Shown here piece after piece: positions 9,147 through 58,199 of a stretch of DNA of 64,000 nt. Under the pieces are notes generated by a model. The model had not been told where the DNA came from, ran no database searches, and saw only the letters and a list, made by a program, of their open reading frames with translations. The stretch comes from Rosettibacter firmus (GTDB taxonomy: Bacteria > Bacteroidota > Ignavibacteria > Ignavibacteriales > Melioribacteraceae). The position numbers and the translations under genes were made by a program. How positions within the stretch are numbered: position 1 is the stretch's first letter; every line of letters starts with the position of its first letter. The stretch covers positions 130,001-194,000 of the forward strand of contig NZ_JAYKGJ010000002.1 of the NCBI RefSeq assembly GCF_036860695.1. The letters are read 5' to 3'.

Positions 9147-9181
9147 AAGACTAATTTTCGTTAATGAGTTTTAATTTATTA

Positions 9182-11287: not shown

Positions 11288-11660
11288 ATTATACCAATTT
11301 TTAGTTATGGCTGAATTATGACAATTTAATATAGAATTCATCACATAAATATCCAAAGGAAATCTTATAAACATAATTTATCGAATATTACAGGGTTGAG
11401 TTATTTTTATTTTTTTTTAAAAAATAAAGTTTATTAACGTAAAAACATTAGCTTATTAACAATATAAAGTAATGAAATAAATTATTAAGGTATTGTATTA
11501 GCAATTACTAAGAAAAAGAAAAATAATTGGTTTATTTGAATGTTATATTGATTTTGCTATCTAAACAACACTCTCTATTTTTCGTTCATAAGAAAAAGCT
11601 AATTTGCCATAAAGCATAAGCTGAAGGCAAAAATTCAAAAAAAATTTTATTGAGGATTTT
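11288..11660. other. Intergenic region between divergent genes
   Basis: Very AT-rich spacer between the prolyl oligopeptidase and glutamate dehydrogenase genes, which point away from each other. It must hold both promoters. I do not see a convincing TTG/TAnnTTTG pair, RNA structure or coding sequence in it. Confidence 0.6.
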
Positions 11661-37205: not shown

Positions 37206-37913
37206 GTGAGACTCACTTTCGATTTTGAAATAAGTCCCACTACAATTCCCAAAAACTACAATCGGGGCTTTATTTCATTAATAAAATATTTAATTCAAAG
37301 TAAAAGCGAATTACTTTATCATTACTATTATGATAAAAAAAGATTAAAGCCATTTACATTTAGTGTATATTTCCCGCAATTAAATGGAATGGATAGCGAT
37401 AAAATTAATGCTGGTAACATTGCATATCTAAACTTTTCCTCTTCTGATTTATTCCTTTTATCTTCTATTTACAATAGTTTTAGAGAAATTAAAGAGCACA
37501 GGTGGCAACAGAATGGTAATGAAATATACTTTAAGCCTATCAAAGTGAAATTAAATCCTCACAAAAAAATCAATAAAGATATTGCAACATTTAAAACACT
37601 TTCGCCAGTACTTATAAATAACATTGGGGATTCACACAAATTTTTATTACCAGGCGAAGACGGCTTTATAGAGGGACTTGAATTTGCGGTTCGTCAATGT
37701 GCAAAAGAATTTTTGAATTACGAAGAGAAATTCCCATTAGAATTCGAAATAGGTAAATGGGGTAGAGAAGTAGTATATGTTTATCAAAAAATGCCATCTG
37801 TCAATGGAATTTTTGTTATAAAATCACTCCCGGAAATTTTACAAATGATATATGACATTGGATTGGGAGTTCATCGTTCACAAGGATTTGGAATGCTGGA
37901 GGTGATAAAATGA
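37206..37913 (+). CDS. cas6: CRISPR pre-crRNA endoribonuclease Cas6
   Basis: Cuts the CRISPR transcript within each repeat to leave the 8-base 5' handle (ATTGAAAC from this array's repeat). 235 residues of RAMP fold with the C-terminal glycine-rich loop GLGVHRSQGFGMLEV. The N-terminal block RLTFDFEISPTTIPKNYN is typical of type I-B Cas6. It starts with GTG at 37206 after GGGGG; the overlapping ATG at 37204 reads straight into a stop. First gene of the effector operon, 4-bp overlap with cas8. Confidence 0.92.
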   Translation: MRLTFDFEISPTTIPKNYNRGFISLIKYLIQSKSELLYHYYYDKKRLKPFTFSVYFPQLNGMDSDKINAGNIAYLNFSSSDLFLLSSIYNSFREIKEHRWQQNGNEIYFKPIKVKLNPHKKINKDIATFKTLSPVLINNIGDSHKFLLPGEDGFIEGLEFAVRQCAKEFLNYEEKFPLEFEIGKWGREVVYVYQKMPSVNGIFVIKSLPEILQMIYDIGLGVHRSQGFGMLEVIK

Positions 37914-38983
37914 ATACAAATACAATTACACTTTATCCATCAAACTGGCTTTACAATGCTGGGGTGATAGGGATTGCATCATATTATCCAGACTACATTT
38001 CTTTTGAAAACTGTATGATTTGTATAGATAAAAATCTTTTCACAAATATTTCGTTTGATAATTACTTTGAAAAGAACAAAGTCATTAATTTAACTGGAAA
38101 TAATCTTTATTATCCCAATTTCATTGATTCTAAAGGAAATCAGAAAAATATTTTCAGTGAATTTATTACAAGATTTAATTATTTAGAAAATTCTGGTTGC
38201 TGTCATATTTGTGCTAATCCATATTATTTAAATGATGAGAAATATTTTGAAATTGAAAAAATGGGTAATGCAGCAAAAATGTTTTTGAACAAGATAAAAT
38301 ACTTCGATATGTATTTTAACAAATTGTTAGGACCTTCAAAATCCAAATTTCCAAATGGTTTCTGGAATATGAATGAGAGTCTTGAAGTCTGTCATTTATG
38401 TAGTTTTATTTTAATTCATCACCATCTTGCATTTACAAATCTATCGGATAAAACACAATTATTTATTAACGCTCCTTCATTTAAGTTGATGTATGAGCTT
38501 AATCGTATTGTTAAAGCACTTTATCAATCAGAACCAAACGATGCACCTAAAAAACGGAGAGAAATTGTTGCGAATTCAATAATCGAATATGCTCATAAAA
38601 TATCATTTACTTTCAGTAAATGGACTTCAATGAATATTGAAATTATATCAAAAAAATCGGATGATATAAATTATTATACATTCCCGTATAATGTAGCAGT
38701 TATTATATCTGATAGAGATATTGCAAATCTTTTAAGAGATATTGGGGAGACTAACATTTTAACAATCATTTTAGAGCAGAGATATAATGAATTAATTGAT
38801 ATTGCACATAAAATTTTTAGAGTTTGTCTAAAAAATCCAGAAAAGTTTTTGAAAAATGATAGAAATATTCTGAGAGATTTTATAAAGATTGAAAGAAATC
38901 TAAATAGACCTTTGGAGTTTGCAAACAAATTACTCAAACTTTATTCTATAATAGTAGAAAAATTAAAAGGAGTAGGAGTATGA
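37910..38983 (+). CDS. cas8b: Type I-B Cascade large subunit Cas8 (Cst1-like, CXXC-CXXC)
   Basis: 357 residues. Two CxxC pairs, CCHICANPYYL near residue 101 and CHLCSFI near 163, form the zinc-binding region that defines the Cst1/CXXC-CXXC family of Cas8 proteins. This subunit recognises the PAM in the Cascade complex. Position between cas6 and cas7 supports the call. The protein seems to end before the C-terminal helical bundle found in longer Cas8 proteins; the next gene, which overlaps by 4 bp, supplies an all-helical protein of suitable size. Confidence 0.82.
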   Translation: MNTNTITLYPSNWLYNAGVIGIASYYPDYISFENCMICIDKNLFTNISFDNYFEKNKVINLTGNNLYYPNFIDSKGNQKNIFSEFITRFNYLENSGCCHICANPYYLNDEKYFEIEKMGNAAKMFLNKIKYFDMYFNKLLGPSKSKFPNGFWNMNESLEVCHLCSFILIHHHLAFTNLSDKTQLFINAPSFKLMYELNRIVKALYQSEPNDAPKKRREIVANSIIEYAHKISFTFSKWTSMNIEIISKKSDDINYYTFPYNVAVIISDRDIANLLRDIGETNILTIILEQRYNELIDIAHKIFRVCLKNPEKFLKNDRNILRDFIKIERNLNRPLEFANKLLKLYSIIVEKLKGVGV

Positions 38984-39474
38984 CCCTAGAAGAACTTAAT
39001 CAAAAAGTTTCTACTGGTGAATTTTCATACCATGATTTTGAAACTTATTACAAAAATTTACAAAATGAATTTGGGGAATTTCAAAAGACTCTTGAAGAAG
39101 CTTTCAATATCACTCGTAATGATAAAACAAATTTTCAGAGATTGTTGAGAATAGTATCAGGAAAAAACTCTTCAGAGATAATTGAGAGCTTAAAAAAACT
39201 TGGTTATAAATATCGTAAAGGCAAGAATCAGATACTTCAAGAAGCTTTTTCAAATATGGGTTATCGATTACTTGAACAAACAAGGGCTTGTAAAAGAGAC
39301 GATGTTTATTATAGTCTGTTAAGGATATTTATTTCAGCTAAAGAAAATTTTCCTCTCATCCTGGTAGAAGCATTTAAGTCATATTATTCTGATGCATTAT
39401 TTAAAATATTTATCTTTTCTTTTTTAAGTGGAATACTCGGTCAAGAAGAAGAATCATATAATAAGGAGAATTAA
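38980..39474 (+). CDS. Small helical protein in the cas operon, candidate Cas11
   Basis: 164 residues, predicted all-alpha (heptad-like segments such as YHDFETYYKNLQNEFGEF and KKLGYKYRKGKNQILQEAF), with no recognisable motif. It lies between cas8 and cas7, with its own ribosome site (GGAGTAGGAGT) and an ATGA overlap with cas8. Small subunits of type I complexes are either separate genes (Cse2, Csa5) or made by internal initiation in the 3' part of cas8. Size, helical content and position fit a stand-alone Cas11. I have no homology evidence. Confidence 0.55.
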   Translation: MTLEELNQKVSTGEFSYHDFETYYKNLQNEFGEFQKTLEEAFNITRNDKTNFQRLLRIVSGKNSSEIIESLKKLGYKYRKGKNQILQEAFSNMGYRLLEQTRACKRDDVYYSLLRIFISAKENFPLILVEAFKSYYSDALFKIFIFSFLSGILGQEEESYNKEN

Positions 39475-40551
<1,077 letters not shown>

Positions 40552-40637
40552 AAAATTTTATTATAGGATTTTAAGAATGTTTTTAAATCTAATTCAAAAA
40601 CTCATTGATATCAACTAAAATAATTATTTAAAATACA

Positions 40638-41438
40638 ATGAAAATACTTAGAGTTATTATTTATCAACCACAAGCACATTACAGAATCCCTTTCACATAT
40701 CAGAGAAGACACACCTATCCAATACCACCTTATTCAACAGTGTTTGGATTTTTAATTAATTTAATTGGTATTTATGATCAAGAATCAAACGATTATAAAC
40801 AACTTAATAAACTCAAACTTTCAATTGCAGGTAAGTTTGAATCAAAATCAACTGAGATGATTTGGTTTAGGAATTTGTTAAAAAGTGCTCACAAAGATCG
40901 ATTTAAGCATCCTCAGAATAGATTTTTAGGTGGGCATATCGAACATTTTGGTGGTCAATCTCAAATGTGGATAGATATCCTTAATAATGTTGAAATTATT
41001 ATTTATATGTATCATGAAGATGAAAGTGTTTTAATGAAAATTTATGAAAACCTATTAGAACCAAAGAACCGGCTTGAAATTCTACATCTTGGAAGAGCAG
41101 AAGACTGGATAATATTAAAAGATAAGCCTGTATTTCTTAATGAATCAGACCTTAGCTTTAAACGACTTGATCGTAATTATGGTTATTTTTTCTGGATCCC
41201 TGAAAAAATTTATTCTTTTGATTCTTATACAATCGACTTTAACAACCTCGATGGATTACTTTTTAATATCCCTGTCTTTTCAAAAATTGAAAATTATCAT
41301 CAAACTTTTAATCGAAATGGGAAAAGAACATTTATTAAATATATGAGAACAAAATTAAATGACGGTAAAATTCTTAATGTTAATTTGCTTCTTGATAAAA
41401 AATTATGTCTCCCAATATTTCTTGGAGATTTTCAATGA
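40638..41438 (+). CDS. cas5: Cascade subunit Cas5
   Basis: Caps the 5' handle of the crRNA. 266 residues; the start, residues 2-31 (ILRVIIYQPQAHYRIPF, then YPIPPYSTVFGFLINLIG), is the standard Cas5 RAMP fold with its Tyr/Pro-rich loop. The ATGA overlap with cas3 couples their translation. Confidence 0.9.
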   Translation: MKILRVIIYQPQAHYRIPFTYQRRHTYPIPPYSTVFGFLINLIGIYDQESNDYKQLNKLKLSIAGKFESKSTEMIWFRNLLKSAHKDRFKHPQNRFLGGHIEHFGGQSQMWIDILNNVEIIIYMYHEDESVLMKIYENLLEPKNRLEILHLGRAEDWIILKDKPVFLNESDLSFKRLDRNYGYFFWIPEKIYSFDSYTIDFNNLDGLLFNIPVFSKIENYHQTFNRNGKRTFIKYMRTKLNDGKILNVNLLLDKKLCLPIFLGDFQ

Positions 41439-44110
41439 ATAGTGATAACTCTATTTGGGCAAAAAGAAAAAAACTTGATGCTGTTAGTCAAAGAGAAATA
41501 TTTATAACATTAAGTGACCATACTAATCACCTCCTACAAAAATTTGATGAGATTAAACATAGATTAAAGCCCGAACTTCACTATCCAATAAAACTCGCAA
41601 TTCAATTACATGATATTGGTAAAGTTCTACCAAGATTCCAGAGAAAAAATTTAGGTAATTTGAATTACAAACCTTTTGATGTTTCTATTGATATTTATCA
41701 TTCCATTCTTTCAGTTCTTCTAATAAATAAAATGGAACTTAAAAGTGAACTTTCAAAAAATAACATTAACGATGATGAAATAGAAAAATTTATACTATCT
41801 GCAGTGGCTTTCCATCACTGGAAAGATAAGTTTGAGGATTTATTTAGATATGGAAATAAAAACTTTAGTCTACTAAAACAAAAATCCATTTCCTTTAAAG
41901 AAGAATTAATTAAAAATCTTAAAGAAGAGATGCAAAAGGTTAATGATTTTAATATTAATCTTATTGAATTAGATGAAAACATGCTCGAAGGATTATCGGG
42001 AGAAAAATCAATTCCATTTTATGAATATGTTTTACCACCGTATCAATTATATTATCTTCCCCAGAGAATTGATGTAAATGAAGAGAAGAATATTGATTGG
42101 ATTTTAATTTCCGGTTTTTTAATTAGATGTGATCATTTTGCTTCTTTTTGTGAAGAAGAAAATTTTGATTTCCCTTTTGAAATTGAATTACCTCAATTTC
42201 ATAGAACTAAATATAGTATAGTTAATGAAATTATAAACAGGGCAAATTTAAAAGATGGACATAATATCTGGCAAATAGAAAAAATCGATTCTTTTCAAAA
42301 TAAAAATACAATTCTTATTGCTCCTACTGGATTTGGGAAAACGGAATTTGCTTTTTTATGGGCTGGGAATGAGAAATTTTTCTATACTTTACCTATAAGA
42401 GCTGCTGTAGAACAGATCTATGAAAGAGCTAAAAGAATTTTCAACTCTGATCAAAAAAATGACGAGGATATAAAACAATTGAATGCAATTAAAGAGGAAA
42501 AAGTTGGTATATTGCATTCCGATGCTGATCTTTTTTTAATTGATGAACATGACGAAGAATATTCAATAAGACAATATGATACTGCAAAGCAACTTGCATT
42601 TCCAGTAACAATTTCTACTGGTGATCAGTTTTTCCCATACTCCTTGAGACCTCCAGGATATGAAAAAATTTATTCTTTATTTTCTTATTCAAAATTAGTA
42701 GTGGATGAAATTCAAGCTTATGACCCTGTTTCTGCAGCTATTGTTGTTAAATTTGTTCAAGAAGTTGCAAGAATGGGTGGAAAAGCTTTATTAATGACTG
42801 CTACTTTTCCATCATTTATAAAAGATGAAATTCAGAGTAGGTTTGAAAATAACTTACAATTCACTTCACCTGAGATTCTGAATTTATACGAAGAGAATAA
42901 TCAGCAATTAAAAAATCTAAAAAAACATAAAATCCGTTTGATACAAATTGACAATTCAAAACCTGATAATTCTTCTACTTTTTATTTTGATTCACAATTA
43001 GTAGATAAAATTATTCAACTCGGAAGAAAAAATAGAGTACTAATTATTGTAAATACTATTTCTTTTGCACAAACTATTTATGAAAAATTCTGTGACATTT
43101 GCCATAGTGAATCTATAGAACTTTACTTGTTACATTCCCGATTTACTTTTAATGATAGAAAAAAAATTCAAAATGAAATTGAAAATGAATTTAAGAATCC
43201 AAAAACAGTGAACGAAAACAATGGGAAAATATTAATTGCAACACAGGTAATTGAAGCTGCGGTTGATATTGATGCTGATTATCTTTTTACAGAAATCGCT
43301 CCATTAGATTCTTTAATCCAGAGGATGGGTAGAGTCTTAAGACGATATAGAGAAAATTATGTCTATGATGACGAGCCTAATGTGAATATTATTTTCTTTA
43401 ATAATGGGACCGAATCAGGAAATGGGCGAGTATATAAAAAGGAATTAATAGATTTAACAACTATAATTTTAAATAATCTTATGCAAAACAGTGGAAGTAT
43501 AAATTATGACGAAATTGATACTCAAATAAGTTTATATTTTGAACAAATAAAAAATAGGAGAAAATTATTTTCTCTTAATATGCCAATTTTAAGTGATACT
43601 TTAATATCTGAATACCAGAAATATGAACTTGTAAATCTACTTTTTGATGAACTAAAAAAATTTAAGAGTGAATCTACTTTTTTAGATGAGTTTTATTCTA
43701 CTCTTAAATTATTAGATGATGGTTATATGGCTGATAGAAAAGCAGAAGCACAACTAAAATTCAGACCAATTGTAAGCACCTATGTTATAAGTCAAGACTT
43801 AAAAGAAAAACTTAAAGAAACTATTTTACATTTTTCTCACTTATATCTTAATTCTAAAAGACCTTACACAATGTTTAAAGAAAAAATTATCTCTGAATAT
43901 GTTACAAGTGTTGTTGGTTTAAAGCGAATTGGTAAAGTAAATTCTGTTGCTTTCTGGATTCAAAATGAATTAGCTTTACCAGATGAAAAATTTACTAAAT
44001 TGATTAGTTGGACTGAGAATATCTATTTTGTTGATTCAAATTATGATTCTAAAAAAGGACTGGATAAAAGTATAAACGAACAACTGTCAAATCTTACGAA
44101 TATAATTTAA
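41435..44110 (+). CDS. cas3: CRISPR effector nuclease-helicase Cas3 (HD + DExH)
   Basis: Recruited by Cascade to unwind and shred the target. 891 residues from ATG 41435 (TTGGAGATTTTCA upstream, ATGA overlap with cas5). The N-terminal HD nuclease shows LHDIGK and the metal histidines in YHSIL and FHHWKD. The helicase shows Walker A APTGFGKTEF, motif II VVDEIQAYDP, motif III LLMTATFP and motif VI QRMGRVLRR. All key residues are present, so interference should be functional, which bears on the tRNA-like first spacer. Confidence 0.94.
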   Translation: MNSDNSIWAKRKKLDAVSQREIFITLSDHTNHLLQKFDEIKHRLKPELHYPIKLAIQLHDIGKVLPRFQRKNLGNLNYKPFDVSIDIYHSILSVLLINKMELKSELSKNNINDDEIEKFILSAVAFHHWKDKFEDLFRYGNKNFSLLKQKSISFKEELIKNLKEEMQKVNDFNINLIELDENMLEGLSGEKSIPFYEYVLPPYQLYYLPQRIDVNEEKNIDWILISGFLIRCDHFASFCEEENFDFPFEIELPQFHRTKYSIVNEIINRANLKDGHNIWQIEKIDSFQNKNTILIAPTGFGKTEFAFLWAGNEKFFYTLPIRAAVEQIYERAKRIFNSDQKNDEDIKQLNAIKEEKVGILHSDADLFLIDEHDEEYSIRQYDTAKQLAFPVTISTGDQFFPYSLRPPGYEKIYSLFSYSKLVVDEIQAYDPVSAAIVVKFVQEVARMGGKALLMTATFPSFIKDEIQSRFENNLQFTSPEILNLYEENNQQLKNLKKHKIRLIQIDNSKPDNSSTFYFDSQLVDKIIQLGRKNRVLIIVNTISFAQTIYEKFCDICHSESIELYLLHSRFTFNDRKKIQNEIENEFKNPKTVNENNGKILIATQVIEAAVDIDADYLFTEIAPLDSLIQRMGRVLRRYRENYVYDDEPNVNIIFFNNGTESGNGRVYKKELIDLTTIILNNLMQNSGSINYDEIDTQISLYFEQIKNRRKLFSLNMPILSDTLISEYQKYELVNLLFDELKKFKSESTFLDEFYSTLKLLDDGYMADRKAEAQLKFRPIVSTYVISQDLKEKLKETILHFSHLYLNSKRPYTMFKEKIISEYVTSVVGLKRIGKVNSVAFWIQNELALPDEKFTKLISWTENIYFVDSNYDSKKGLDKSINEQLSNLTNII

Positions 44111-44610
44111 TGATAATTAGCGGTACTCATATAAATTATTATAACCATTGCAAAAGGCATCTGTGGTTTTTTGCACATCATATATTTATGGAGCATACTA
44201 GCGAACTTGTTGCACTCGGTAAGTTTATTTCAGAATCTACATATCAGAGAGAGAAACATGAACTGCATTTAATTTATGGAGAAGATGAAATAATTATCGA
44301 CTTTTACGATCCTAAAAATAAAAGAATTCATGAGGTTAAAAAGTCCAATAAAATGGAAGAAACTCATATCTGGCAGGTTAAATTTTACATTTATGTGCTT
44401 GAGAAAATGGGAATTAAAGGTGTTACTGGCGAAATTGATTATCCCAAGCTTCGTCAAAAAATTGATGTTATTTTAGATGATAATGATAGAAAAAGAATAG
44501 AAGAAATTAAAGAAGAAATACCTAAAATAATCTCTAACGATATACCTCCTTCTGTAATAAATAAATCTTACTGTAAAAATTGTTCCTATTATGAATTGTG
44601 CTATGTTTGA
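44110..44610 (+). CDS. cas4: CRISPR adaptation exonuclease Cas4
   Basis: Fe-S exonuclease that trims and orients prespacers. 166 residues: a first cysteine (Cys14 in HCKRHLWFF), RecB-type motifs IIDFYDPKNKRIHEVKKSNK with the Asp and the E-x-K, and three C-terminal cysteines in YCKNCSYYELCYV. The ATG overlaps the cas3 stop by 1 base. Last gene of the effector operon; 400 bases separate it from cas1. Confidence 0.92.
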   Translation: MIISGTHINYYNHCKRHLWFFAHHIFMEHTSELVALGKFISESTYQREKHELHLIYGEDEIIIDFYDPKNKRIHEVKKSNKMEETHIWQVKFYIYVLEKMGIKGVTGEIDYPKLRQKIDVILDDNDRKRIEEIKEEIPKIISNDIPPSVINKSYCKNCSYYELCYV

Positions 44611-45010
44611 TTAATTTAATTATTCACATAAAGAAAAAATAAAAAAGGGGACATTAAAAAATAAACTTCACAAATAAAAGACCTTGCCAACTAAATAATA
44701 TAAAACAAATTGTTTTTTATAATTTTTAATAAACTAAATTAGTGGAATATAAATTTCACAATCAGTAAAAGTAAACTATGATCAGATTAACATTTGAAAT
44801 GCTAATTCATTAAATAATTACAACTCTGTTTAAATCAAATACGAGATATTTTTATGTAATTCACATAAATTTGATTAATTGCATTAATTGAAAGCCATAA
44901 AAATTTTAAAAAGTTATTATAAAATTATTTTAAGAGTGAACAAATACGGGGTCAATATTAAAATTAGAATTACAGTTAAGTAGTTTACGTGAAAATCATA
45001 TAAAATAACT
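44611..45010 (+). other. Intergenic region between cas4 and cas1
   Basis: AT-rich, no open reading frame of note. It probably carries a separate promoter for cas1-cas2 and the leader. ATTAATTGAAAG at about 44884-44895 resembles the 3' end of the CRISPR repeat (GAATTGAAAC), but the match is too short to name it a repeat-like element. Confidence 0.5.
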
Positions 45011-46102
45011 ATGAAACAAAATTATTACATATTTAGTAGTGGAAAACTTATTCGCAAAGAAAACACACTCTACTTCGAACCAGGAGAAAGCTGTGAGCCA
45101 CAAGAAATTCAAACCTCTGAAGAATCAATTGAAGTAGAAGATCAAACAATAAGTGAAAGCGATAATGATAATTCTGAGCCTAAACGATTGCCTCGTAAAC
45201 CAATTCCTGTGGAAGATATCGATTCAATTTATTGTTTTGGGGAGTTAAGATTTAATACAAAATTTCTGAACTATCTTGCACAAAAAGAAATAATACTTCA
45301 TCTGTTTAATTATTATGGTTATTATACCTCTTCATTTTATCCAAGAGAACCTTATGTATCTGGTAAACTATTAATAGAACAGGTTAAGAATTACCTCGAT
45401 CCAGAAAAAAGAATAAATATCGCACAAAAATTTATTTTAGGAGCTGCTGAAAATATTAAAAAAAACTTACAATACTATAATGTAAGAGAAAAAGATTTAT
45501 CATATTTCATTAATACGATAGAAGAACAAATAACAAAAATATCCAATTCTAAAGATGTACAGGAATTAATGGGCATTGAGGGCAATATAAGGTCAAATTA
45601 TTATATTGCCTGGAATCTTATAATAAATAAAGAAATAAATTTTGAAAAACGAGAAAAACATCCTCCAACAAATCCAGTTAATGCCTTAATATCATTTGGA
45701 AATTCTCTTGTTTATACAACGGTCTTAAGTGAAATTTATAAAACGCAATTAAATCCACTAATAAGTTTTTTGCACGAACCTGGAGAAAGAAGATTTTCAT
45801 TATCGTTGGATGTAGCAGAAATATTCAAACCACTTTTATCAGATAGAATAATATTTAGTTTATTAAATAAAAATCAAATAAATGAAAAGCATTTTAGTAG
45901 CGAATTAAATAAATGTTACTTAACAGAAGAAGGGAGGAAAATATTTCTAAAAGAATTTGATGATAAACTAAAAACAACAATAAAACATAGACAATTAAAA
46001 AAATCTGTGAGCTATAGACATTTAATAAGACTTGAATGCTATAAAATAATAAAACACCTTTTAGGAGAAAAAGAATATAAACCATTCATAATATGGTGGT
46101 AA
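45011..46102 (+). CDS. cas1: CRISPR integrase Cas1, with acidic insertion
   Basis: Inserts new spacers together with Cas2. The 363-residue protein has the type I-B layout: N-terminal beta domain (YYIFSSGKLIRKENTLYF), IPVEDIDSIYCFGE, then the helical catalytic domain with the metal-site glutamate in LMGIEGNIRSNYY, a His in SFLHEPGERRFSLSLD with the Asp. About residues 24-63 are an extra low-complexity stretch rich in Glu, Ser and Asp, within the beta domain where relatives have only a short turn. Start at ATG 45011. Confidence 0.93.
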   Translation: MKQNYYIFSSGKLIRKENTLYFEPGESCEPQEIQTSEESIEVEDQTISESDNDNSEPKRLPRKPIPVEDIDSIYCFGELRFNTKFLNYLAQKEIILHLFNYYGYYTSSFYPREPYVSGKLLIEQVKNYLDPEKRINIAQKFILGAAENIKKNLQYYNVREKDLSYFINTIEEQITKISNSKDVQELMGIEGNIRSNYYIAWNLIINKEINFEKREKHPPTNPVNALISFGNSLVYTTVLSEIYKTQLNPLISFLHEPGERRFSLSLDVAEIFKPLLSDRIIFSLLNKNQINEKHFSSELNKCYLTEEGRKIFLKEFDDKLKTTIKHRQLKKSVSYRHLIRLECYKIIKHLLGEKEYKPFIIWW

Positions 46103-46162
46103 AAGAAACAAGTAATGTGTAATATATTTTAAAAATTATCTTTGATAAATAAGGTATTAAAT

Positions 46163-46426
46163 ATGTATGTTATCATAGTATATGATGCGGTACCCAAGAG
46201 AGGATTAAAATTATTAAAATACTTAAGGCAGCATTTAAACTGGGTACAAAATTCAGTATTTGAGGGAGAACTAACAGAAAGTGAATTTGAAAGAATAAAA
46301 CACGGGATAAAAGAGATAGTAAACGAGAAGCAAGACAGTGTAATTTATTATGTATTTGATTCGCAGAATTATCATGAAAGAGGAATAATAGGGATTGAAA
46401 GGAATGAGATTGACACATTCATATAA
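46163..46426 (+). CDS. cas2: CRISPR adaptation protein Cas2
   Basis: 87 residues from ATG 46163, preceded by AAGGTATTAAAT; the in-frame TTG at 46142 would add 7 residues that the family lacks. Ferredoxin-like fold with MYVIIVYDAV and the following LKLLKYLRQHLNWVQNSVFEG, typical of Cas2 next to type I-B Cas1. Forms the Cas1-Cas2 integrase. The stop is followed directly by the CRISPR leader. Confidence 0.93.
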   Translation: MYVIIVYDAVPKRGLKLLKYLRQHLNWVQNSVFEGELTESEFERIKHGIKEIVNEKQDSVIYYVFDSQNYHERGIIGIERNEIDTFI

Positions 46427-46526
46427 AAAGTCGTCGATGTACAGGGGGAAATACATTATTAAGGGTCGACGACAGATAAACAAAAAAATTATTTGATTAT
46501 AATAAAAAAATGCATATTTTGGGGCG
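46427..46526 (+). promoter_or_regulatory. CRISPR leader with 8-bp inverted repeat
   Basis: 100 bases between the cas2 stop and the first repeat. GTCGTCGA (46430-46437) and TCGACGAC (46466-46473) are perfect inverted copies 28 bases apart. A TATAAT at 46498-46503 could be part of the array promoter. The leader side is fixed by the perfect repeats here and decayed repeats at the other end. Confidence 0.75.
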
Positions 46527-49500
46527 GTGTTAATCGAACTATAGTAGAATTGAAACATTTTAACTATGCGCCCGTAGCTCAACTGGATAGAGGTGTTAAT
46601 CGAACTATAGTAGAATTGAAACCTGAATTTGAGAAATTATGTGCAAATTCCTGAACAGTGTTAATCGAACTATAGTAGAATTGAAACAGACTGTCTAAAA
46701 AGCTCTTGAAAGCCTGTTTTACAGTGTTAATCGAACTATAGTAGAATTGAAACAATGCCAATCCATAATCAGTTAAAAAAGCATCATTTGTGTTAATCGA
46801 ACTATAGTAGAATTGAAACGGGGTACATAGGATTTTCGGAATATCTCCCCATTTGGTGTTAATCGAACTATAGTAGAATTGAAACATTAGCAGAGCAACT
46901 GTTCCCGTGTACCTCCCAGAGGTGTTAATCGAACTATAGTAGAATTGAAACATAAAAAAAAAGTTTAGTTCTTAACAAACGTGATTAGTGTTAATCGAAC
47001 TATAGTAGAATTGAAACTATAAAAATTCTAAGCGATGCATTGCAAATCGCAAAGTGTTAATCGAACTATAGTAGAATTGAAACACTTTAAAGCATTGCTA
47101 AACAATAATAATAAATTAGCGTGTTAATCGAACTATAGTAGAATTGAAACTTTTTACACAACGCAAACATATTGGGACATACCAATTGTGTTAATCGAAC
47201 TATAGTAGAATTGAAACTTTGCTTTCAGAAATATAGAAGATTCCAAATTTGGGGTGTTAATCGAACTATAGTAGAATTGAAACTTTTCTAAATTAATAAG
47301 ATAATTCCCAATAGCTTCTTGTGTTAATCGAACTATAGTAGAATTGAAACTTTTTTATCCCCCGCCGGCTCGCTTTTTCGTTGAAAAAGTGTTAATCGAA
47401 CTATAGTAGAATTGAAACTCTTCTATTAATTTCCCATATGCACTATATGCATTGTGTTAATCGAACTATAGTAGAATTGAAACTTATAACTTCCTGTATA
47501 TTTTACAATCCACCCTTGGTGTTAATCGAACTATAGTAGAATTGAAACATGTTTTTGTTGTTGCATCATAATTTAATTCACTCATGTGTTAATCGAACTA
47601 TAGTAGAATTGAAACCGCTTTTGTCCACTTTAAGAATTCATTAGCTGCTTCGTGTTAATCGAACTATAGTAGAATTGAAACTTATTATCAATGACAATAA
47701 TGCGGTCTTTATATTTATGTGTTAATCGAACTATAGTAGAATTGAAACTAAAATGGGAAGGGATCTCGTTTAAACCACGTTAGGTGTTAATCGAACTATA
47801 GTAGAATTGAAACTCAGGTGCATCATAGCACCATTTATCTAAATTATTATGTGTTAATCGAACTATAGTAGAATTGAAACTTTTTTAAGAAGTTTAACTT
47901 CTTTTAACCATATTTCCGTGTTAATCGAACTATAGTAGAATTGAAACTTTTTTATCCCCCGCACCACCGAAATTTCGTTGAAAAAGTGTTAATCGAACTA
48001 TAGTAGAATTGAAACACTTTTCTGAGCTATGATTCGAAATATTGAATAATAGTGTTAATCGAACTATAGTAGAATTGAAACCCGCTTAACGCTTTAACAG
48101 CTTCATCGATATTTTCTACGTGTTAATCGAACTATAGTAGAATTGAAACTGCTTTTTCATATTATACCTCTTTTTTTGTCTTTGGTGTTAATCGAACTAT
48201 AGTAGAATTGAAACTGGTGAAAATCGCCATTTTGTTTTGTTAAAAAATTAACGTGTTAATCGAACTATAGTAGAATTGAAACTTAAAATGTTTTTTTGCA
48301 ATTTCTGCGTATTCCTGAGTGTTAATCGAACTATAGTAGAATTGAAACTTTGACATACCTTTTGCGTCAAAAGATTTTAGTGATGGTGTTAATCGAACTA
48401 TAGTAGAATTGAAACTTAGTAAAAAGAGGCTTACCGGTTTCATCATATCCAGGTGTTAATCGAACTATAGTAGAATTGAAACTAAGTATTATTATGTGGA
48501 TGGGAGAACTTATGCCAGTGTTAATCGAACTATAGTAGAATTGAAACACGTGCTGGTAGCAGTCATGGTTGTGAAATTCTTGTTGTGTTAATCGAACTAT
48601 AGTAGAATTGAAACGAAGATAAAGACTATTTTAAGCAAAAATTCAATGAAGAGTGTTAATCGAACTATAGTAGAATTGAAACAACTAATTCGCCAAGCGT
48701 TTCCGCAGTGGGGGTAACCGTGTTAATCGAACTATAGTAGAATTGAAACATAAATCATTCTATCGGTGCGTTTGGAATCAGTCTGAGTGTTAATCGAACT
48801 ATAGTAGAATTGAAACTTCAAGTTTAGCTAAAACACTTGGTATTGATACAAGTCGTGTTAATCGAACTATAGTAGAATTGAAACTTCATTATCTGCTTCT
48901 TATACTGTTTATACGTGTATTGTGTTAATCGAACTATAGTAGAATTGAAACTTTTTTAGGGGGCGATCAAGATACAGCATTTATGAGAGTGTTAATCGAA
49001 CTATAGTAGAATTGAAACAATCTTGCTATTGTTATTTGTTTGCTGTCTTAGTGCACGGTGTTAATCGAACTATAGTAGAATTGAAACAATTATGATCCGT
49101 CCAGATGCCGTAACGGAGGTTGTTACGGGTGTTAATCGAACTATAGTAGAATTGAAACTTATATATCTATATTGTTTATCTTTGTGCGTTCTTAGTGTTA
49201 ATCGAACTATAGTAGAATTGAAACTGATTACAGAAATTTCATAAATGCGAGAATAGAGGCGTGTTAATCGAACTATAGTAGAATTGAAACTAATTTTCTC
49301 CATCGGCAAAATTCAAAAATGGCAGTGTGTTAATCGAACTATAGTAGAATTGAAACATCTATTATATTTACAGTGTAAATTAATCAATAACAGTGTTAAT
49401 CGAACTATAGTAGAATTGAAACATAGGAGGGATAGCGATCTTTTCTGGGGTGAGAACAGTGTTAATCGAACTATAGTAGAATTGAAACTTAGAATATGTG

Positions 49501-50810
49501 TCTGATACAAATGCTGTGTCTTTGTGTTAATCGAACTATAGTAGAATTGAAACTAAATACACCCAGCAATTGCGCCTTTTTTGGCGCGCCCTGTGTTAAT
49601 CGAACTATAGTAGAATTGAAACGATTTTGGGGTTGGCTGCTCATTAAAGCAATTTGCCGTGTTAATCGAACTATAGTAGAATTGAAACTTTAAAATCTGA
49701 AGTGGACTGTCAACATCGAAATTGGTGTTAATCGAACTATAGTAGAATTGAAACAGAATTAATTGACTTTAGAGAAGCTTTAGGTTATTCAGGTGTTAAT
49801 CGAACTATAGTAGAATTGAAACAAATGTTCGAGAATTTTTCGTGGAATTAATCCAATAAGTGTTAATCGAACTATAGTAGAATTGAAACAGTGTATTTTT
49901 ATTTTTTATAAAATTTTTTTTTCAAGTGTTAATCGAACTATAGTAGAATTGAAACTAAGGCTCACCAATATAAAAATATACATTGCGTTCATGTGTTAAT
50001 CGAACTATAGTAGAATTGAAACTATATCTTTCGTAAACCAAGAAATGACAGCAAAGAATGTGTTAATCGAACTATAGTAGAATTGAAACTCAGGTACTTT
50101 TACTTCAACCTTATCAATTAAAATAGTGTTAATCGAACTATAGTAGAATTGAAACTATAATTCTTCTCCACAATATGGACACACAATACCATGTGTTAAT
50201 CGAACTATAGTAGAATTGAAACATTTTTTAATATTTTTATCAAAATTCATTTTACTATTTGTGTTAATCGAACTATAGTAGAATTGAAACTACATTTACG
50301 CAACCATATAACATTCCTGTCTTAAGGGTGTTAATCGAACTATAGTAGAATTGAAACATTGTAAATCTCTTATAAATTCTTCTTCGCCGGTCATAGTGTT
50401 AATCGAACTATAGTAGAATTGAAACTCAGTCAATATTAATTTTCTTTCACCGATTTTTATTTGTGTTAATCGAACTATAGTAGAATTGAAACTAAAACAA
50501 AAATAGCAGCAATTCCCTCTTCGGGAGAGGTGTTAATCGAACTATAGTAGAATTGTAACATTATCATTGCAAGAAGTTCATCTATACCATTTATATGTGT
50601 TAATCGAACTATAGTAGAATTGAACCCCTTTTTTATTTTTTAATCAGTTTTCAATTCTAATTGTGTTAATCGAACTATAGTAGAATTGAAACGTATATTG
50701 AAGACTCCCAATATTGCTCAATTGATATTCGTGTTAATCGAACTATAGTAGAATTGAAACATTACTTCTTTTTTCATCTTGCTGAAAAAATATTTTAGTG
50801 TTAATCGAAC

Positions 50811-52568: not shown

Positions 52569-53057
52569 ATGTTACAAATCCGTATTAAAAAAGGCAATTC
52601 AAACGAGATTTGGGTCTCTTTTCCTTACAATCCTACTCTTGTAGAAAAGATAAAGACTGTCAAAGGTAATCGCTGGTATCCCGAAGGTAAATATTGGTTG
52701 TTTCCCAATACTGATGGAACTCTGCAAAAGATTTTGTGGAAAGAATATAGGCCAAATAAATGGTTATTTTCTGGTCAGGATAAAGAAAGATATATAACAA
52801 CGCGAACGGTTGAAAAAATATTTCTAAAAGCCTGTGAGTCTGCTAAGATATTAAAACCTATAACAGTTCATAGATTAAGACATAGCTTTGCAACTCATCT
52901 TTTGGAAGGCGGATCTGATTTGAAATACATACAGGAGCTTTTGGGACATGCAAACAGCAAAACGACCGAGATTTACACCCATATAAGCACAAAAAACTTG
53001 GGAAAAATAAGGAGTCCTTTGGATTCACTACTTTTAAAAAGAGGTTGTGGTGAATGA
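52569..53057 (+). pseudogene. Internally deleted tyrosine recombinase/integrase
   Basis: 162 residues. The C-terminal half is a clear tyrosine recombinase: [18 protein letters not shown] (His-x-x-Arg box), [18 protein letters not shown] (His and nucleophile Tyr), then IRSPLDSLL. The N-terminal ~60 residues ([17 protein letters not shown]) resemble the start of integrases common in related genomes. The part between, with the core-binding domain and the first catalytic Arg, is missing, the frame staying open. An intact relative would be about 300-400 residues. I infer an inactive remnant. It lies 175 bases before the HNH gene and the GTTAGGC site. Confidence 0.75.
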
Positions 53058-53190
53058 TATTATTTGTTGGGTTAGAGATTCCGGCTATTCAGCCAGAGTT
53101 AGAACATCTGCACCAAGGTGCTGATATTATCCCAGATTGTAGGAATCCATCCCTTCGGGAGTAATATATATGCACTCGGAGTGTTGATGT

Positions 53191-53203
53191 AAACGAGTTA
53201 GGC
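53191..53203 (+). other. Candidate integron-type core site (GTTRRRY)
   Basis: GTTAGGC at 53197-53203, in AAACGAGTTAGGC, matches the inverse core of attI/attC sites. It lies between the recombinase remnant and the HNH gene, where an attI would be expected. A 7-base match is weak alone; its weight comes from the two larger palindromes downstream. Confidence 0.3.
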
Positions 53204-53232
53204 GAGATTCGAATGAGGGAGGAGGTTTTAAA

Positions 53233-53796
53233 ATGCCTGATAAAGACGTAAAAACTATAAGAGATCTTATATACTACCAATATGCAAAAATCATAGCTAA
53301 ACGCGCTTTTAATATTCCTAATGGGGAAGAAGTAAAGAAAAAACATTATGGATTTATAAAAGAGACATTTCAAGAATTAAAAAACGGTGTTAAGTCTTGG
53401 TCAGACATTACTCGTGAAGATTGGCAGCTTGTGGAGTCAGAAGAAAAATGTATATATTGTGGTTCAACAAACAATCTCAATAAAGAACATATAGTGCCAA
53501 AGTCATTAAAAATTAAGCCTGAATGTAGGACTTGTGATAAAATTCAAGCTATTCATAACCAAATTTGGGCATGCCGTCAGTGTAATTCTTCAAAAGGGAA
53601 CAAAGGAGTTTATGAATTTTTCAAAGCATTGTACACTAATAAAAAGAAATTTTATGACTATATTCCACCATTGCTGGAAAAGAAGTATTTGAAGACAATT
53701 TACAACTGTCACGAATGCGCAGGGACGCTTGATAAAGGAGATATAGATAGCGATGGGGAAATATCTGTACTTGAGATTGATTTTATACTTCATTGA
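53233..53796 (+). CDS. HNH endonuclease domain protein
   Basis: 187 residues. The HNH motif lies in the middle: CIYCGSTNNLNKEHIVPKSL, with His in KEHIVPKS, then Asn/His in QAIHNQIWACRQCNSSKGNKG. Two CxxC pairs (CIYC, CRQC) form the structural zinc site. The N-terminal 75 residues have no known motif. Very strong ribosome site (GAGGGAGGAGG). Base use is less AT-rich than the chromosome. An attC-like palindrome begins 6 bases after the stop, as in a gene cassette. It could act as a restriction-type nuclease; target unknown. Confidence 0.82.
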   Translation: MPDKDVKTIRDLIYYQYAKIIAKRAFNIPNGEEVKKKHYGFIKETFQELKNGVKSWSDITREDWQLVESEEKCIYCGSTNNLNKEHIVPKSLKIKPECRTCDKIQAIHNQIWACRQCNSSKGNKGVYEFFKALYTNKKKFYDYIPPLLEKKYLKTIYNCHECAGTLDKGDIDSDGEISVLEIDFILH

Positions 53797-53801
53797 ACTT
53801 T

Positions 53802-53873
53802 GCCTAACAGCGGATAAAATGCTTCGCGCAAATTACTTTCGACAACTTCGTTTATTCGCAAAACGTTATAAGC
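53802..53873 (+). other. attC-like imperfect palindrome 1
   Basis: Begins GCCTAAC (RYYYAAC core) and ends GTTATAAGC. Inside, GCGGATAAA (53810-53818) faces TTTATTCGC (53851-53859), complementary at 8 of 9 positions. The R' side has two extra bases compared with R''. Total 72 bases, within the usual attC range. Lies directly after the HNH stop codon. Confidence 0.45.
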
Positions 53874-53907
53874 AATGCCGTGCCATATGAAAGCATCAAG
53901 GTGCTTA

Positions 53908-54735
53908 ATGAAATACAAAAAAGTTAGTTTTATCCGTTATCCCGGTGGAAAACAAAGGGTTTTAAATTACATAATCCCTCACTTACCTCCGAGAGAACTT
54001 ATAAAAGGGAGATTTATAGAACCATTTGTAGGAAGCGGTGCGGTTTTTTTTGCATTGAACCCTAAACGCGCCTTATTAGCAGATATTAATCCAGAACTTA
54101 TTGATTTATACCGTGGAATACGCCGTTATCCCTTGAAAGTTTGGGAAATATATAAGAGTTTCCCGAAAACAAAAAAAGCATACTACGAGATTAGGGCAAC
54201 TAAGGTTGATGGAATGGACTTGGCATTCAGAGCAGCCAGAACCCTTTATTTAAACAGGACTTGTTTTAAGGGGATGTGGCGACACAATTCAAATGGAGAA
54301 TTTAATGTTGGCTATGGAGGACAGGATAGACGATGGGTAATTAATAAGGAAACTTTAAAAGAGATTTCTAGTAGATTAAAACGCGCTATTTTAAAATGTA
54401 GTGATTTTGAAGAAATAATCGAAGAAAGCACAAAAGAAGATTTTATATTTGTCGATCCACCATATCGACCTGCCGAGCGTGAATTGCTTCACAGTCATTA
54501 TGTATATGGAAAATTTAGTTATTCCGATTATCAAAGGCTGGGAAAAGCATTGAAAAGAGCATCAAATAGAGGTGTTACATGGGCAATGACCATCTCCGCC
54601 CATCCTGATATTTTAGCTCTGTTTGATGGTTTTCATATCATACTTATACCAAGGGGTACCGGGAAAAAACCTGGAATTTTAACAAATAACTCAGGAGAAG
54701 TTATAATTTGTAATTACGAGGAGGTACTTCTATGA
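53908..54735 (+). CDS. D12-class adenine-specific DNA methyltransferase (Dam-like)
   Basis: Transfers methyl from SAM to N6 of adenine in DNA. I start at ATG 53908 (AAGGTGCTTA upstream), where the conserved IRYPGGK (residues 9-15) begins; the ATG at 53875 would add 11 residues overlapping the palindrome. 275 residues: motif I EPFVGSGAVFFAL (38-50), DIN further on, and motif IV DPPY at 183-186. No restriction endonuclease of the same class is adjacent. ATGA overlap with the HerA gene makes an operon with it and NurA. Confidence 0.92.
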   Translation: MKYKKVSFIRYPGGKQRVLNYIIPHLPPRELIKGRFIEPFVGSGAVFFALNPKRALLADINPELIDLYRGIRRYPLKVWEIYKSFPKTKKAYYEIRATKVDGMDLAFRAARTLYLNRTCFKGMWRHNSNGEFNVGYGGQDRRWVINKETLKEISSRLKRAILKCSDFEEIIEESTKEDFIFVDPPYRPAERELLHSHYVYGKFSYSDYQRLGKALKRASNRGVTWAMTISAHPDILALFDGFHIILIPRGTGKKPGILTNNSGEVIICNYEEVLL

Positions 54736-56732
54736 AAGAATTCTTTGAGCAAGCGGCAATGTTAAATCATCCTCTCAGAATTTTACAAAGATTTCTTGAC
54801 CAAGAAAAGGCAAACGAACAGGCAAAGCAATACGATAAAATGCGTTTTGTTGGGTATGTTCTGGAAATTGGATATGACACAGTCACAATTATTACTTCTG
54901 ACCCTTTCAAGATCGCCGTGGGTGGAGTGCCTCGAAATTCACTACTTATAATGGTGCCGTCTAGTTATGATACTTTACCCCCACATTTCACATTGTTACG
55001 GGTCCTTGAATCAGCACCTACTCCTCTCTCAAAAGAAGTTCAACAGACATACTTTGAATTGCAAAAAAAATCGATGCCGGAACTCGATATTTTCACTCAA
55101 AGCGAGTTGCAATGGGGAGCACTTAAAACCGCAGTCCTTGGTATGTTTTATCCACACCCTGAAAGAATGGATGAGGTAGAATTTTCAGGAGATTTAAATA
55201 ATTTTGTTAGCGCGCATAAGTATCGTGTTTATGCTCCTGATGATGATTTATTGAACCTTATAACTAATTCCATGGTACCCAATGAAAATCGTTTTCCCAT
55301 AGGCGATTTACGACTAACTGAGTGTAGATTACCTCTTCAAAACAAACCTCACCCAAAGGTTACAGTATATGTTTCAACAAAGGATTTTATGGGTACCCGC
55401 ACTGCAATGTTTGGCAAAACACGACTTGGTAAAAGCAATGTAGTGAAATTAATTGCACAAAGTTTAATTGAGACAACAAAGGATACAAAAAATGTTGGAC
55501 AACTCATATTTGACATCAACGGGGAGTATGCGAATGATAATCCACAGGATAACAGCCAATCATTAAGAAGTGCATATCCAGAACGGTGTGTTGTTTATGC
55601 CTTAACACCAAAGTCAGCAACACCATCAAATCCTTTAAAGATAAATTTCTATGAACATCCTGAGAAGTCTAAATCAATAATAAGGAGTTTACTTGAACAG
55701 GATGGAAGGGCATCAGGATATGTAAGAAGTTTTACTAGCGTGGAATTACCTTCACTTGACGAAATCAGGAGTCTTCCGTCCGGTGGCGACCAAGCAAGAG
55801 CACTTAGAAAGATTCAAATTTTTTGGGCTATTCTCAAAAAAGCCGGATATTCTGTTGATGAACGGCAACTTTTCTCGGTTGCTCCAACAGGCAATCCAGC
55901 CAGCAGGTTTAACCCCGGGTTTAATGTAAATCTAAGAAGCGCAGCTTATTCCTCTGAGAACATAACACCTACTCCACAACATCCTAGTACTTTAGATGAA
56001 TTGGTTAGAGAATTAGAAATAATAAATCGCTTTAGGCGTGCAAACCTAAATCATCAAAGTCTTACTACTGGGTCAGGGAATCCTCTATTTGATGCTGATG
56101 ATGTTGCCTTGTTAGAATTTTTAGAACCCCAACCTGGTAGAAGCGGAGTATCTCTTATTCAACCTTATCGGATTTATCATGATCGAAGAGCGGGTGATTT
56201 TATAAATGAAATTATCAAGTATTTAGATTCTGGAGTAACGGTAATTCTGGATCTGGGGAATGCCAATCCAGAAGTGATGAATTACTTCTCTGATGAGCTA
56301 TCACTGGCTGTTTTAAGACATCAAGTTGATAAATTTTCTAACAATCAATTAGGTAATCACTTCATACAGCTATATTTTGAAGAAGCCCACAATCTATTCC
56401 CTCATTCAGGAGATGTCACCACAATTTACAGCCGTTTAGCAAAAGAAGGGGCAAAATATCATATTGGAATGGTATATTCCACCCAATCACCAACGACAAT
56501 CAATAAAGACTTATTAGCACAAACTGAGAATTTTTTTGTTGCTCATCTTGCGTCTCAAGATGATGTTAATACACTTGCTAAAGTGAACATCGCATACGAA
56601 ACTCTAAAAGATGATATTCTTCAGGCAAAAACAGTTGGGTATATAAGGATGCTTACACGCTCCCATCGTTTCGTTATATCTGTTCAAGCAAGGAAGTTTA
56701 CATTACCCAATTCAAATCCGGAGGGAAAATAA
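54732..56732 (+). CDS. HerA-like DNA-translocating ATPase (DUF87)
   Basis: 666 residues of the HerA/FtsK clade. An N-terminal beta-barrel-like region (residues about 35-75) precedes the motor. Walker A GKTRLGKS is at 228-235, Walker B LYFEEAHNLF with Glu550-Glu551, sensor-type YSTQSPTTI near 585, and an arginine-rich end (RMLTRSHRF). HerA forms hexameric rings that pump DNA, typically together with the NurA nuclease encoded by the next gene, which starts at the base after its stop. A 200-residue insert in the middle of the motor (about 320-500) is unassigned. Confidence 0.88.
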   Translation: MKEFFEQAAMLNHPLRILQRFLDQEKANEQAKQYDKMRFVGYVLEIGYDTVTIITSDPFKIAVGGVPRNSLLIMVPSSYDTLPPHFTLLRVLESAPTPLSKEVQQTYFELQKKSMPELDIFTQSELQWGALKTAVLGMFYPHPERMDEVEFSGDLNNFVSAHKYRVYAPDDDLLNLITNSMVPNENRFPIGDLRLTECRLPLQNKPHPKVTVYVSTKDFMGTRTAMFGKTRLGKSNVVKLIAQSLIETTKDTKNVGQLIFDINGEYANDNPQDNSQSLRSAYPERCVVYALTPKSATPSNPLKINFYEHPEKSKSIIRSLLEQDGRASGYVRSFTSVELPSLDEIRSLPSGGDQARALRKIQIFWAILKKAGYSVDERQLFSVAPTGNPASRFNPGFNVNLRSAAYSSENITPTPQHPSTLDELVRELEIINRFRRANLNHQSLTTGSGNPLFDADDVALLEFLEPQPGRSGVSLIQPYRIYHDRRAGDFINEIIKYLDSGVTVILDLGNANPEVMNYFSDELSLAVLRHQVDKFSNNQLGNHFIQLYFEEAHNLFPHSGDVTTIYSRLAKEGAKYHIGMVYSTQSPTTINKDLLAQTENFFVAHLASQDDVNTLAKVNIAYETLKDDILQAKTVGYIRMLTRSHRFVISVQARKFTLPNSNPEGK

Positions 56733-58037
56733 ATGCCTTATAAAGCTGGAGACCGATTACCCGGCGAAAGAGCGAGTCGTCTGGGGCATCTTGAAGTTCT
56801 TAAAAGTGAACTTGTAAATAAATTGGTAAAGAATTTTGAGGATAGTAACTCACCAGCAACTACCAGTAATTCTTTATGGGAACCTTTACCCCCCGGTGGG
56901 GAACATCTACCTTTGGTCTTTGGTATTGACGGGTCAATGCAGCCAATTGAGTCTGAGACCCCACCTCATAAAAGGCTTGCATTTGTAAAAACAGCTCTAT
57001 TGAGAATTGACCAATTTGCACTTTCTAAAATAGACAGGGACTCTCCACATCCGCTAGCATTGCGCGATATACTTGCAGATTCAGCATTATATCATGCAAC
57101 AGTTTTTCCACTGAGACATGTTTCTATTCCAGGGCAAAACACATACCACGCAATACGACAGATTATTTTTGAATCCCTTAAGGACAAATCTTTAGATGGT
57201 GAACCAATGGAAACCCTTAAATGGATTGCCTTTGAAAAGTGGGATGGGAAACAAAAACAATTACCACTTTTTGAATGCCCTTATTGTGAAAAAACCGTGG
57301 CTACGCTTCCATATAATGCTGAAACGGGTAAATGCCCTGAATGTAATGGAGATTTATTTTTAACAGATATGCTTGGTTTTCATCAGGAAATGGCCCCAGA
57401 TTCAGCGCCGGATACTATTGCAACTGCTTATATGAGCATTCATGAAGTTTTATTACTATTTACTGGCATTCGATACTATTGGGAGAGAAAGAGAGAAGTT
57501 CTTTCTAAATGCCTTTTTGTAAAAGATGGCCCGCTCGCTATTCGTGCTCAGTATTCCAAACTTGTGGCTCCTATACGACGATTTTTATCGTTTGCAAGGG
57601 ATCAAGGTTATCCAATACATATAATTGGGCAAGAAAAATCAGGAAAGTTTTACGATCACTTAGAACTCATAGGGAGAAATGCCCCCGAGGGATATATCTT
57701 CATACCAGGTGATCAATATATAAAGGAAGAAATTCAACATAGACCTAGCACAGGAGCTCCTTATGGTAAAGACACAAATTATGGAGCCAAGATTTTTATT
57801 AAAATCAATAATTATCATAAGATGGTATTAAATATTCCAACGGGTGAATTTGTTGAGAATCCGAAGTTATCTGATTTGATTGGTGCAAATAACATTTTTG
57901 CCACACTACCAACCATTTTGAGCAACCGATATGAAGGGGCTCTTTTACCTGTTGAACTTGCCAATGGTATTGCTTCTCTTTCAACTTATCCGTCGGCACA
58001 AATTCTCAAAATTTTTGCAGAAGCAGGAGGAGCATAG
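56733..58037 (+). CDS. NurA-like nuclease with zinc-ribbon insertion
   Basis: 434 residues. The NurA core opens with LPLVFGIDGSMQPIES, in which Asp66 fits the first metal-binding Asp of the RNase-H-like fold; FVKDGPLAIRAQYSKL and IHIIGQEKSGKFYDHL follow in family order. Between them about residues 181-205 hold two CxxC pairs (CPYC and CPEC), an inserted zinc ribbon. In archaea NurA works with HerA to resect DNA ends; here they are adjacent with an adenine methylase, suggesting a defence module. No overlap; starts the base after the HerA stop. Confidence 0.82.
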   Translation: MPYKAGDRLPGERASRLGHLEVLKSELVNKLVKNFEDSNSPATTSNSLWEPLPPGGEHLPLVFGIDGSMQPIESETPPHKRLAFVKTALLRIDQFALSKIDRDSPHPLALRDILADSALYHATVFPLRHVSIPGQNTYHAIRQIIFESLKDKSLDGEPMETLKWIAFEKWDGKQKQLPLFECPYCEKTVATLPYNAETGKCPECNGDLFLTDMLGFHQEMAPDSAPDTIATAYMSIHEVLLLFTGIRYYWERKREVLSKCLFVKDGPLAIRAQYSKLVAPIRRFLSFARDQGYPIHIIGQEKSGKFYDHLELIGRNAPEGYIFIPGDQYIKEEIQHRPSTGAPYGKDTNYGAKIFIKINNYHKMVLNIPTGEFVENPKLSDLIGANNIFATLPTILSNRYEGALLPVELANGIASLSTYPSAQILKIFAEAGGA

Positions 58038-58100
58038 CTATTGGATGAATTATAAAGATTTTAGACTCTACATTAAAAAGAAAGTTGGCACAGCACGTGT

Positions 58101-58191
58101 GTATAACACAGCATAAAAGGTTTGTCCGGCAAAGGCGGACTCACCCAAATTCCGCCTTCGGCGGAACTATTTTATGCTGGGAACATTATAT
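58101..58191 (+). other. attC-like imperfect palindrome 2
   Basis: AGCATAAAA (58110-58118) pairs perfectly with TTTTATGCT (58170-58178); outside it TATAA (58102-58106) pairs with TTATA (58186-58190). Inside are a GTCCG/CGGAC hairpin and TCCGCC-TTC-GGCGGA (58151-58165). Its right end, 58182-58199, matches the right end of palindrome 1 (53862-53879) at 15 of 18 bases, and both have TAACA...ATAAAA on the left. Confidence 0.42.
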
Positions 58192-58199
58192 GAAATGCC

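Follow-up and report, generated by a model that had tools for sequence, protein, structure and literature searches.

Likely remains of an integron with a probable TdpAB-like defence cassette and a remnant of an insert-less recombinase in Rosettibacter firmus

The window, that is, the whole 64,000-nucleotide stretch of DNA that was analysed, contains at positions 52569-58191 what are likely the remains of an integron, in which a cassette inserted as a unit would carry a TdpAB-like defence system with a methylase as self-marker, and whose recombinase would belong to a lineage sister to IntI. The elements follow each other in the order recombinase remnant, attI-like site, HNH cassette, attC, three-gene cassette and attC:

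52569-53057, plus strand: remnant of an insert-less, Xer-type integron-integrase-like tyrosine recombinase (Phage_integrase, Pfam, 2e-23; TIGR02249, C-terminal, 95.7 bits)
53175-53203, plus strand: attI-like junction, ...TGTAAACGA|GTTAGGC, with crossover at G53197|T53198
53198-53865, plus strand: first cassette (HNH); the C1 HNH copy (78%) has the corresponding left border and its own 3' attC
53233-53796, plus strand: HNH endonuclease-like gene, 187 aa (HNH_5 9.9e-06, just below the Pfam cut-off)
53802-53871, plus strand: attC site 1 (R'' GCCTAAC, L'' GCGGATAAA, L' TTTATTCGC, R' GTTATAA)
53866-58185, plus strand: three-gene cassette, 4,320 bp (left border common to loci L034-L037; right attC orthologous to L035:6063-6145)
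53908-54735, plus strand: D12-class (Dam-type) N6-adenine DNA methyltransferase (MethyltransfD12 1.3e-46; TIGR00571 2e-56)
54732-56732, plus strand: HerA-family hexameric ATPase, TdpA-like (DUF87 2e-13; best PDB match TdpA 8wet, 8e-27)
56733-58037, plus strand: NurA/TdpB-like nuclease with an inserted CxxC...CxxC zinc-ribbon motif (AF2 model and Foldseek)
58101-58191, plus strand: attC site 2, decayed (R'' GTATAAC, stem CAGCATAAAA/TTTTATGCTG, R' ATTATAT instead of GTTxxxx)

In the proposed mechanism, the cassette 53866-58185 would have entered as a single unit through site-specific recombination at G|TT; it would encode a DNA-degrading machine of the TdpAB kind, formed by a HerA/TdpA-type hexameric ATPase and a NurA/TdpB-type nuclease, with the Dam-type adenine methylase as the likely self-marker, and unmethylated incoming DNA would be degraded. 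The recombinase of the platform would derive from an insert-less lineage that heads attI-attC arrays elsewhere in the class. The sequence itself displays the sites, their borders, the homologous arrays and the missing insert, and the structural matches add to these; recombination activity, defence function and methylation as the self signal are what we infer.

The three-gene cassette and its probable function

The start of the methyltransferase gene was chosen by comparison with homologues. The third protein has no sequence family match in profile searches; its AF2 model, of medium confidence (pLDDT 73.9), finds TdpB as best Foldseek match (8wfd_G, E 3.6e-07; 8wfd is the TdpAB-DNA complex), followed by NurA entries. 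Its homologues conserve a (I/V)DGS motif and four cysteines, and the mid-protein zinc-ribbon motif is present in 14 of 14 aligned sequences.

TdpAB degrades DNA that does not carry the phosphorothioate mark set by TdpC, the phosphorothioation enzyme and standard partner in TdpABC. Since the best match of the HerA-family protein is TdpA and that of the NurA-like protein is TdpB, the probable function of the cassette is that of a TdpAB-like nuclease with the adenine methylase as self-marker; with a Dam-type methylase in the place of the marker enzyme, the simplest mechanism would be degradation of DNA without adenine methylation. The three genes might instead serve DNA repair or genome maintenance, as could be argued from the archaeal HerA-NurA pair, described as an end-resection machine (PMC12977600), and from the NurA-like protein having no match in defence libraries. 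This role appears unlikely, since the closest structural match is TdpAB rather than the repair HerA-NurA, and since the linkage to a methylase, the patchy distribution across phyla and the mobility of the cassette all point away from it.

That distribution was examined with the HerA protein as query and one genome per species, which gave 32 loci; in about 20 of them the operon is closely similar, and none of its three genes is missing where the contig is complete; the three-gene order is conserved across many phyla. The nearest four kinds come from Leptospiraceae (L034, 88%), a contig binned as Baldrarchaeota (L036, 75%), Bacteroidales (L035, 73%) and Atribacteria (L037, 73%); the records of the close relatives thus span Spirochaetota, Bacteroidota, Atribacterota and a contig binned as an Asgard archaeon. 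In the HerA tree the window copy groups with the spirochaete copy, apart from the Bacteroidota copies.

The borders of the unit are conserved as well. The left border GTTATA(A/C)GC(A/C)ATGCC is found in L034, L036 and L037 as in the window, and L035 has a close variant; in all four loci the sequence before the methylase starts, like that of the window, with GT(T/C)AT(A/C)NGC(C/A)ATGC. Flanking attC sites are found at two of these loci. L035 has sites at 6063 (directly 3' of the nuclease gene), 7411, 8347 and 9433, with one gene between each, and by this layout its operon is one cassette of a four-attC array; L036 has a complete attC at 359-446, directly upstream of the methylase. The same unit with the same borders therefore occurs in different contexts. 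In the window the two attC sites lie 4,229 bp apart, and the 4.3-kb, three-gene cassette proposed in the sequence-only reading is supported by the homologous loci with the same left border, by the L035 array in which the gene set is one cassette, by the complete attC that precedes the operon in L036, and by two upstream elements that it had not mentioned, the attI-like site and the remnant of the recombinase. Of the limits it gave, 53866-58186, the left one stands and the right one is here placed at 58185. It had also named related genomes with the operon and without the palindromes as evidence against a cassette; the homologues that have no such attC sites are distant ones.

At L034 (1251-1510 and 5621-7978) the left junction falls within a WD40 gene, at AAAG|TTAT, and a local duplication has rearranged the right flank; this junction looks like an insertion at a non-attC GTT, an indication that is only suggestive.

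The HNH cassette, the attI-like site and the recombinase remnant

Two copies of the HNH cassette exist in the genome; their borders correspond and their attC differ. The left border, GTTAGGCGAGATTC in the window, corresponds to GATAGGTGAAATTC on C1, where the 78% identical copy is followed by another attC-like palindrome. Judged by these borders, the HNH gene upstream of the operon is also a cassette. Two of the more distant HNH homologues (L032, L033) are found in other contexts, without attC. The C1 locus (L013, 1773-6212) is a second one, in which a remnant of a recombinase and an attI-like site are accompanied by two nuclease-like genes, the HNH cassette and an attC; another, different HerA gene and a candidate NurA-like gene lie 3-7 kb further on, at 8930-11903.

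In the window remnant an N-terminal 'PYNP' domain is joined to the C-terminal catalytic half, and about 190 residues are missing between them in the alignment with L195; the C-terminal half matches IntI and Xer models nearly equally. A 58% identical remnant occupies the corresponding position on C1 (C1:1145495-1145902). Both are followed by an attI-like junction, AAACGA|GTTAGGC 139 bases after the remnant stop in the window and AACCGA|GTTAG 188 bases after it on C1, and equivalent junctions are found after 11 full-length relatives. The two remnants were also considered as intI genes, which is ruled out by the missing insert. Since the integrase is present only as a remnant, its local role rests on its relatives and on its position.

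Directly upstream in the window (37206-50700) is a CRISPR-Cas-like operon, with Cas3-, Cas4- and Cas1-like genes recognised by eye, followed by long CRISPR arrays whose repeat is GTTTCAATTCTACTATAGTTCGATTAACAC or close variants.

Insert-less recombinases at the head of attC arrays

Relatives of the remnant are present in 48 of the 197 genomes of the class. Twenty of their loci, taken regardless of the sites around them, were searched with an attC scorer of our own (R'' box, 1 nt, stem, 5 nt and (G/A)TT, with at least 3/4 matching in the R'' box), which also recovers class 1 integron attC. It found 45 attC-like sites in 118 kb on the 3' side versus 4 in 135 kb on the 5' side, with baselines of 1.8 sites in shuffled 3' DNA and 9 in 366 kb of control regions. 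A covariance model trained on five foreign attC only (R3) is too narrow to capture the larger attC in these arrays, where it detects only three sites, so that the enrichment rests on the scorer. Among these loci, 16 continue for more than 700 bp downstream, and 12 of the 16 have at least two sites; the other four loci stop at a contig end within 300 bp of the gene. In the eight mapped loci the genes between the sites point almost all away from the recombinase, and a recombinase with an adjacent attI and then an attC array is seen in L190, L192, L194, L195, L198, L204 and others. The sequence GTTA(G/T) lies 40-140 bp 3' of the recombinase stop; over the 60 bases preceding it, identity between related loci reaches 95, 85 and 78%, whereas over the 60 bases that follow it is 57-67%, about the level of unrelated sequence in the same alignment. 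A conserved left side and an unconserved right side are the pattern expected of an attI followed by different first cassettes.

The distance from the catalytic arginine motif to HxxRH is 91-97 residues in the array-heading recombinases, versus 133-138 in the IntIs measured, and 98 in a housekeeping Xer of the host genome; about 40 residues are missing around patch III, where IntI has its insert. This IntI-specific insert, of about 40 residues, is regarded as essential for integron recombination. On TIGR02249 six full-length relatives score 214-245 bits, all below the 265-bit cut-off and with the match split at the missing insert; their scores with the XerC and XerD models are lower still (185-197 bits). 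None of the 13 tested genomes with this recombinase type has an IntI above the TIGR02249 cut-off. By insert and score, then, the array-heading recombinases are not IntI. In a tree built with the insert columns removed, IntI forms one clade (100/100), and most array-heading recombinases together with the window remnant form its sister group with moderate support (83/76); the branch of the remnant is long and its placement unsure. The arrays headed by these recombinases, in genomes with no recognisable IntI, suggest a second integron-integrase lineage, sister to IntI. The model NF040815 was dropped as a marker of these proteins and is not used as evidence, since it does not separate them from housekeeping Xer (the host Xer gene at C1:657685 scores 251 bits).

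Weaker signs come from other classes of the phylum, with four sites in L249, two in L257, and 14 downstream versus 6 upstream in all. The insert-less recombinases of L249, L257 and L247 have downstream attC-like sites of another sequence type, e.g. CGCTAACATCACCTTGG...CCAAGCTGAATCCCGTTAGGT. No description of integrons headed by insert-less recombinases was found in the open-access literature searched. The insert-less Xer-type recombinases sister to IntI may well be working integron integrases, which would capture attC cassettes at their own attI without the insert, and some attC clusters described as 'integrase-lacking' would then have an integrase that current searches miss.

The genome of the window also encodes a canonical IntI (C3:8354-9361, 444 bits on TIGR02249). 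Its locus (L026, 6058-9361) is a canonical integron, in which a minus-strand IntI precedes an attI-like site, genes of the SDR and VOC types and an attC; these genes look G+C-rich compared with the genome. A second intI-like stretch, decayed and also accompanied by an attI-like site, is found at about 2550-2920. The array in the window could have been built by this enzyme, or by a canonical IntI that has been lost, leaving the Xer-type remnant as a bystander: such an IntI, together with an attI-like site and an attC of its own, is at hand, and cassette insertion in trans is possible. We consider this decidedly improbable, since an attI-like site follows the remnant at both the window and the C1 locus (C2 and C1), since the arrays headed by the full-length relatives lie on one side only and in genomes where no IntI is recognisable, and since the left half of the window junction is unlike that of the C3 junction.

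The two palindromes as attC-like sites

Both palindromes show the anatomy of attC. Site 1 reads GCCTAAC-A-GCGGATAAA ... TTTATTCGC-AAAAC-GTTATAA and site 2 GTATAAC-A-CAGCATAAAA ... TTTTATGCTG-GGAAC-ATTATAT; in both, the R'' box has AAC as its last three bases and is separated by one base from the first arm of a 9-10-bp stem; beyond the loop, the second arm is followed by five bases with a final C and then by GTT (site 1) or ATT (site 2). The sequence-only reading had located both palindromes correctly, and its details prove real: right ends alike at 15 of 18 bases, TAACA...ATAAAA common to the left ends, a GCCTAAC core in the first palindrome and inner strands complementary at 8 of 9 positions. 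The HNH gene does end just 5' of the first palindrome, at a distance of 5 bases instead of the 6 reported (its stop ends at 53796).

The two sites are the top two of our scorer in the 64-kb window, where the number of equally good sites expected under a first-order Markov model is 0.16 for site 1 and 0.03 for site 2. R3 gives site 1 as its sole match in the 64 kb (21.7 bits, E 0.007) and does not detect site 2 there; the covariance-model check proposed earlier thus yields an attC score at one of the two sites. A second model (R1), trained on nine sites that include both window sites, has three matches in the 3.24-Mb genome: sites 1 and 2 and C1:1142929-1143014 (minus strand), another cassette border. 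Since R1 matches nothing else genome-wide, the palindromes are not a dispersed repeat, and the other palindromic repeat family offered earlier as an alternative is disfavoured. The Rfam search gave nothing relevant, and the AACACAGCATAAAAG scan of viral contigs gave 36 matches, about the chance expectation. In single-strand folding against shuffles of the same composition, site 1 is no better (z +0.8) and site 2 far better (z -6.8 and -7.8). That the palindromes are ordinary terminators or a dispersed repeat around a normal chromosomal defence operon, which the strong internal hairpins within site 2 and the chromosomal, attC-free setting of the distant homologues would allow, is highly improbable given the attC geometry, the borders common to several phyla, the L035 array and the count of only three such sites in 3.24 Mb, each of them at the end of a cassette.

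As attC, the two sites differ in preservation. Site 1 has both core triplets, AAC and GTT; site 2 has AAC but ATT at R' instead of the invariant GTT, and its orthologue at L035:6063-6145 keeps an intact GTTAGAT (R3 E 0.0016). With its core mutated, site 2 probably no longer recombines, and the cassette is now probably immobile, fixed in place. The earlier reading of a cassette is to be corrected in two respects: the core of the right-hand attC is damaged, and the local integrase is not a canonical IntI.

Comparison with known systems

Integron surveys join attC sites less than 4 kb apart and recognise platforms by an IntI with the insert (PMC9668308). A cassette with sites 4,229 bp apart would be missed by such clustering, and the window locus escapes both rules, the cassette being longer and the integrase lineage being without the insert. 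Should the insert-less integrases prove functional, experiments could address directly how integrons arose and whether the insert is needed, and an integrase could be assigned to attC clusters now regarded as orphans. The cassette would also show that a complete system of nuclease, ATPase and methylase is able to move as a single unit; we know of no integron cassette of this type.

With TdpABC (8wet, 8wfd) the system has in common the HerA-type ATPase and the TdpB-type nuclease, for which it gives the best structural matches; it differs in that the operon has no TdpC and a D12/Dam-type methyltransferase stands in its place. The locus resembles integron cassettes of the IntI/attI/attC kind in attC anatomy, in the attI-like junction and G|TT borders, and in genes of one orientation that end just before an attC; it is unlike them in its 4.3-kb length with three genes and in a local integrase lineage without the IntI-specific insert. 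IntI (TIGR02249) is the nearest relative of the array-heading recombinases, which nevertheless have no counterpart to about 40 residues of the essential insert and, in all six scanned, stay below the 265-bit cut-off. Defence genes in integron cassettes are known (Darracq 2025, Getz 2025 and Kieffer 2025, as cited in PMC12444791). Like those phage-defence cassettes, the one described here carries defence-type genes as a cassette; unlike them, it is a nuclease-ATPase-methylase trio, found outside Vibrio and mobile class 1 integrons.
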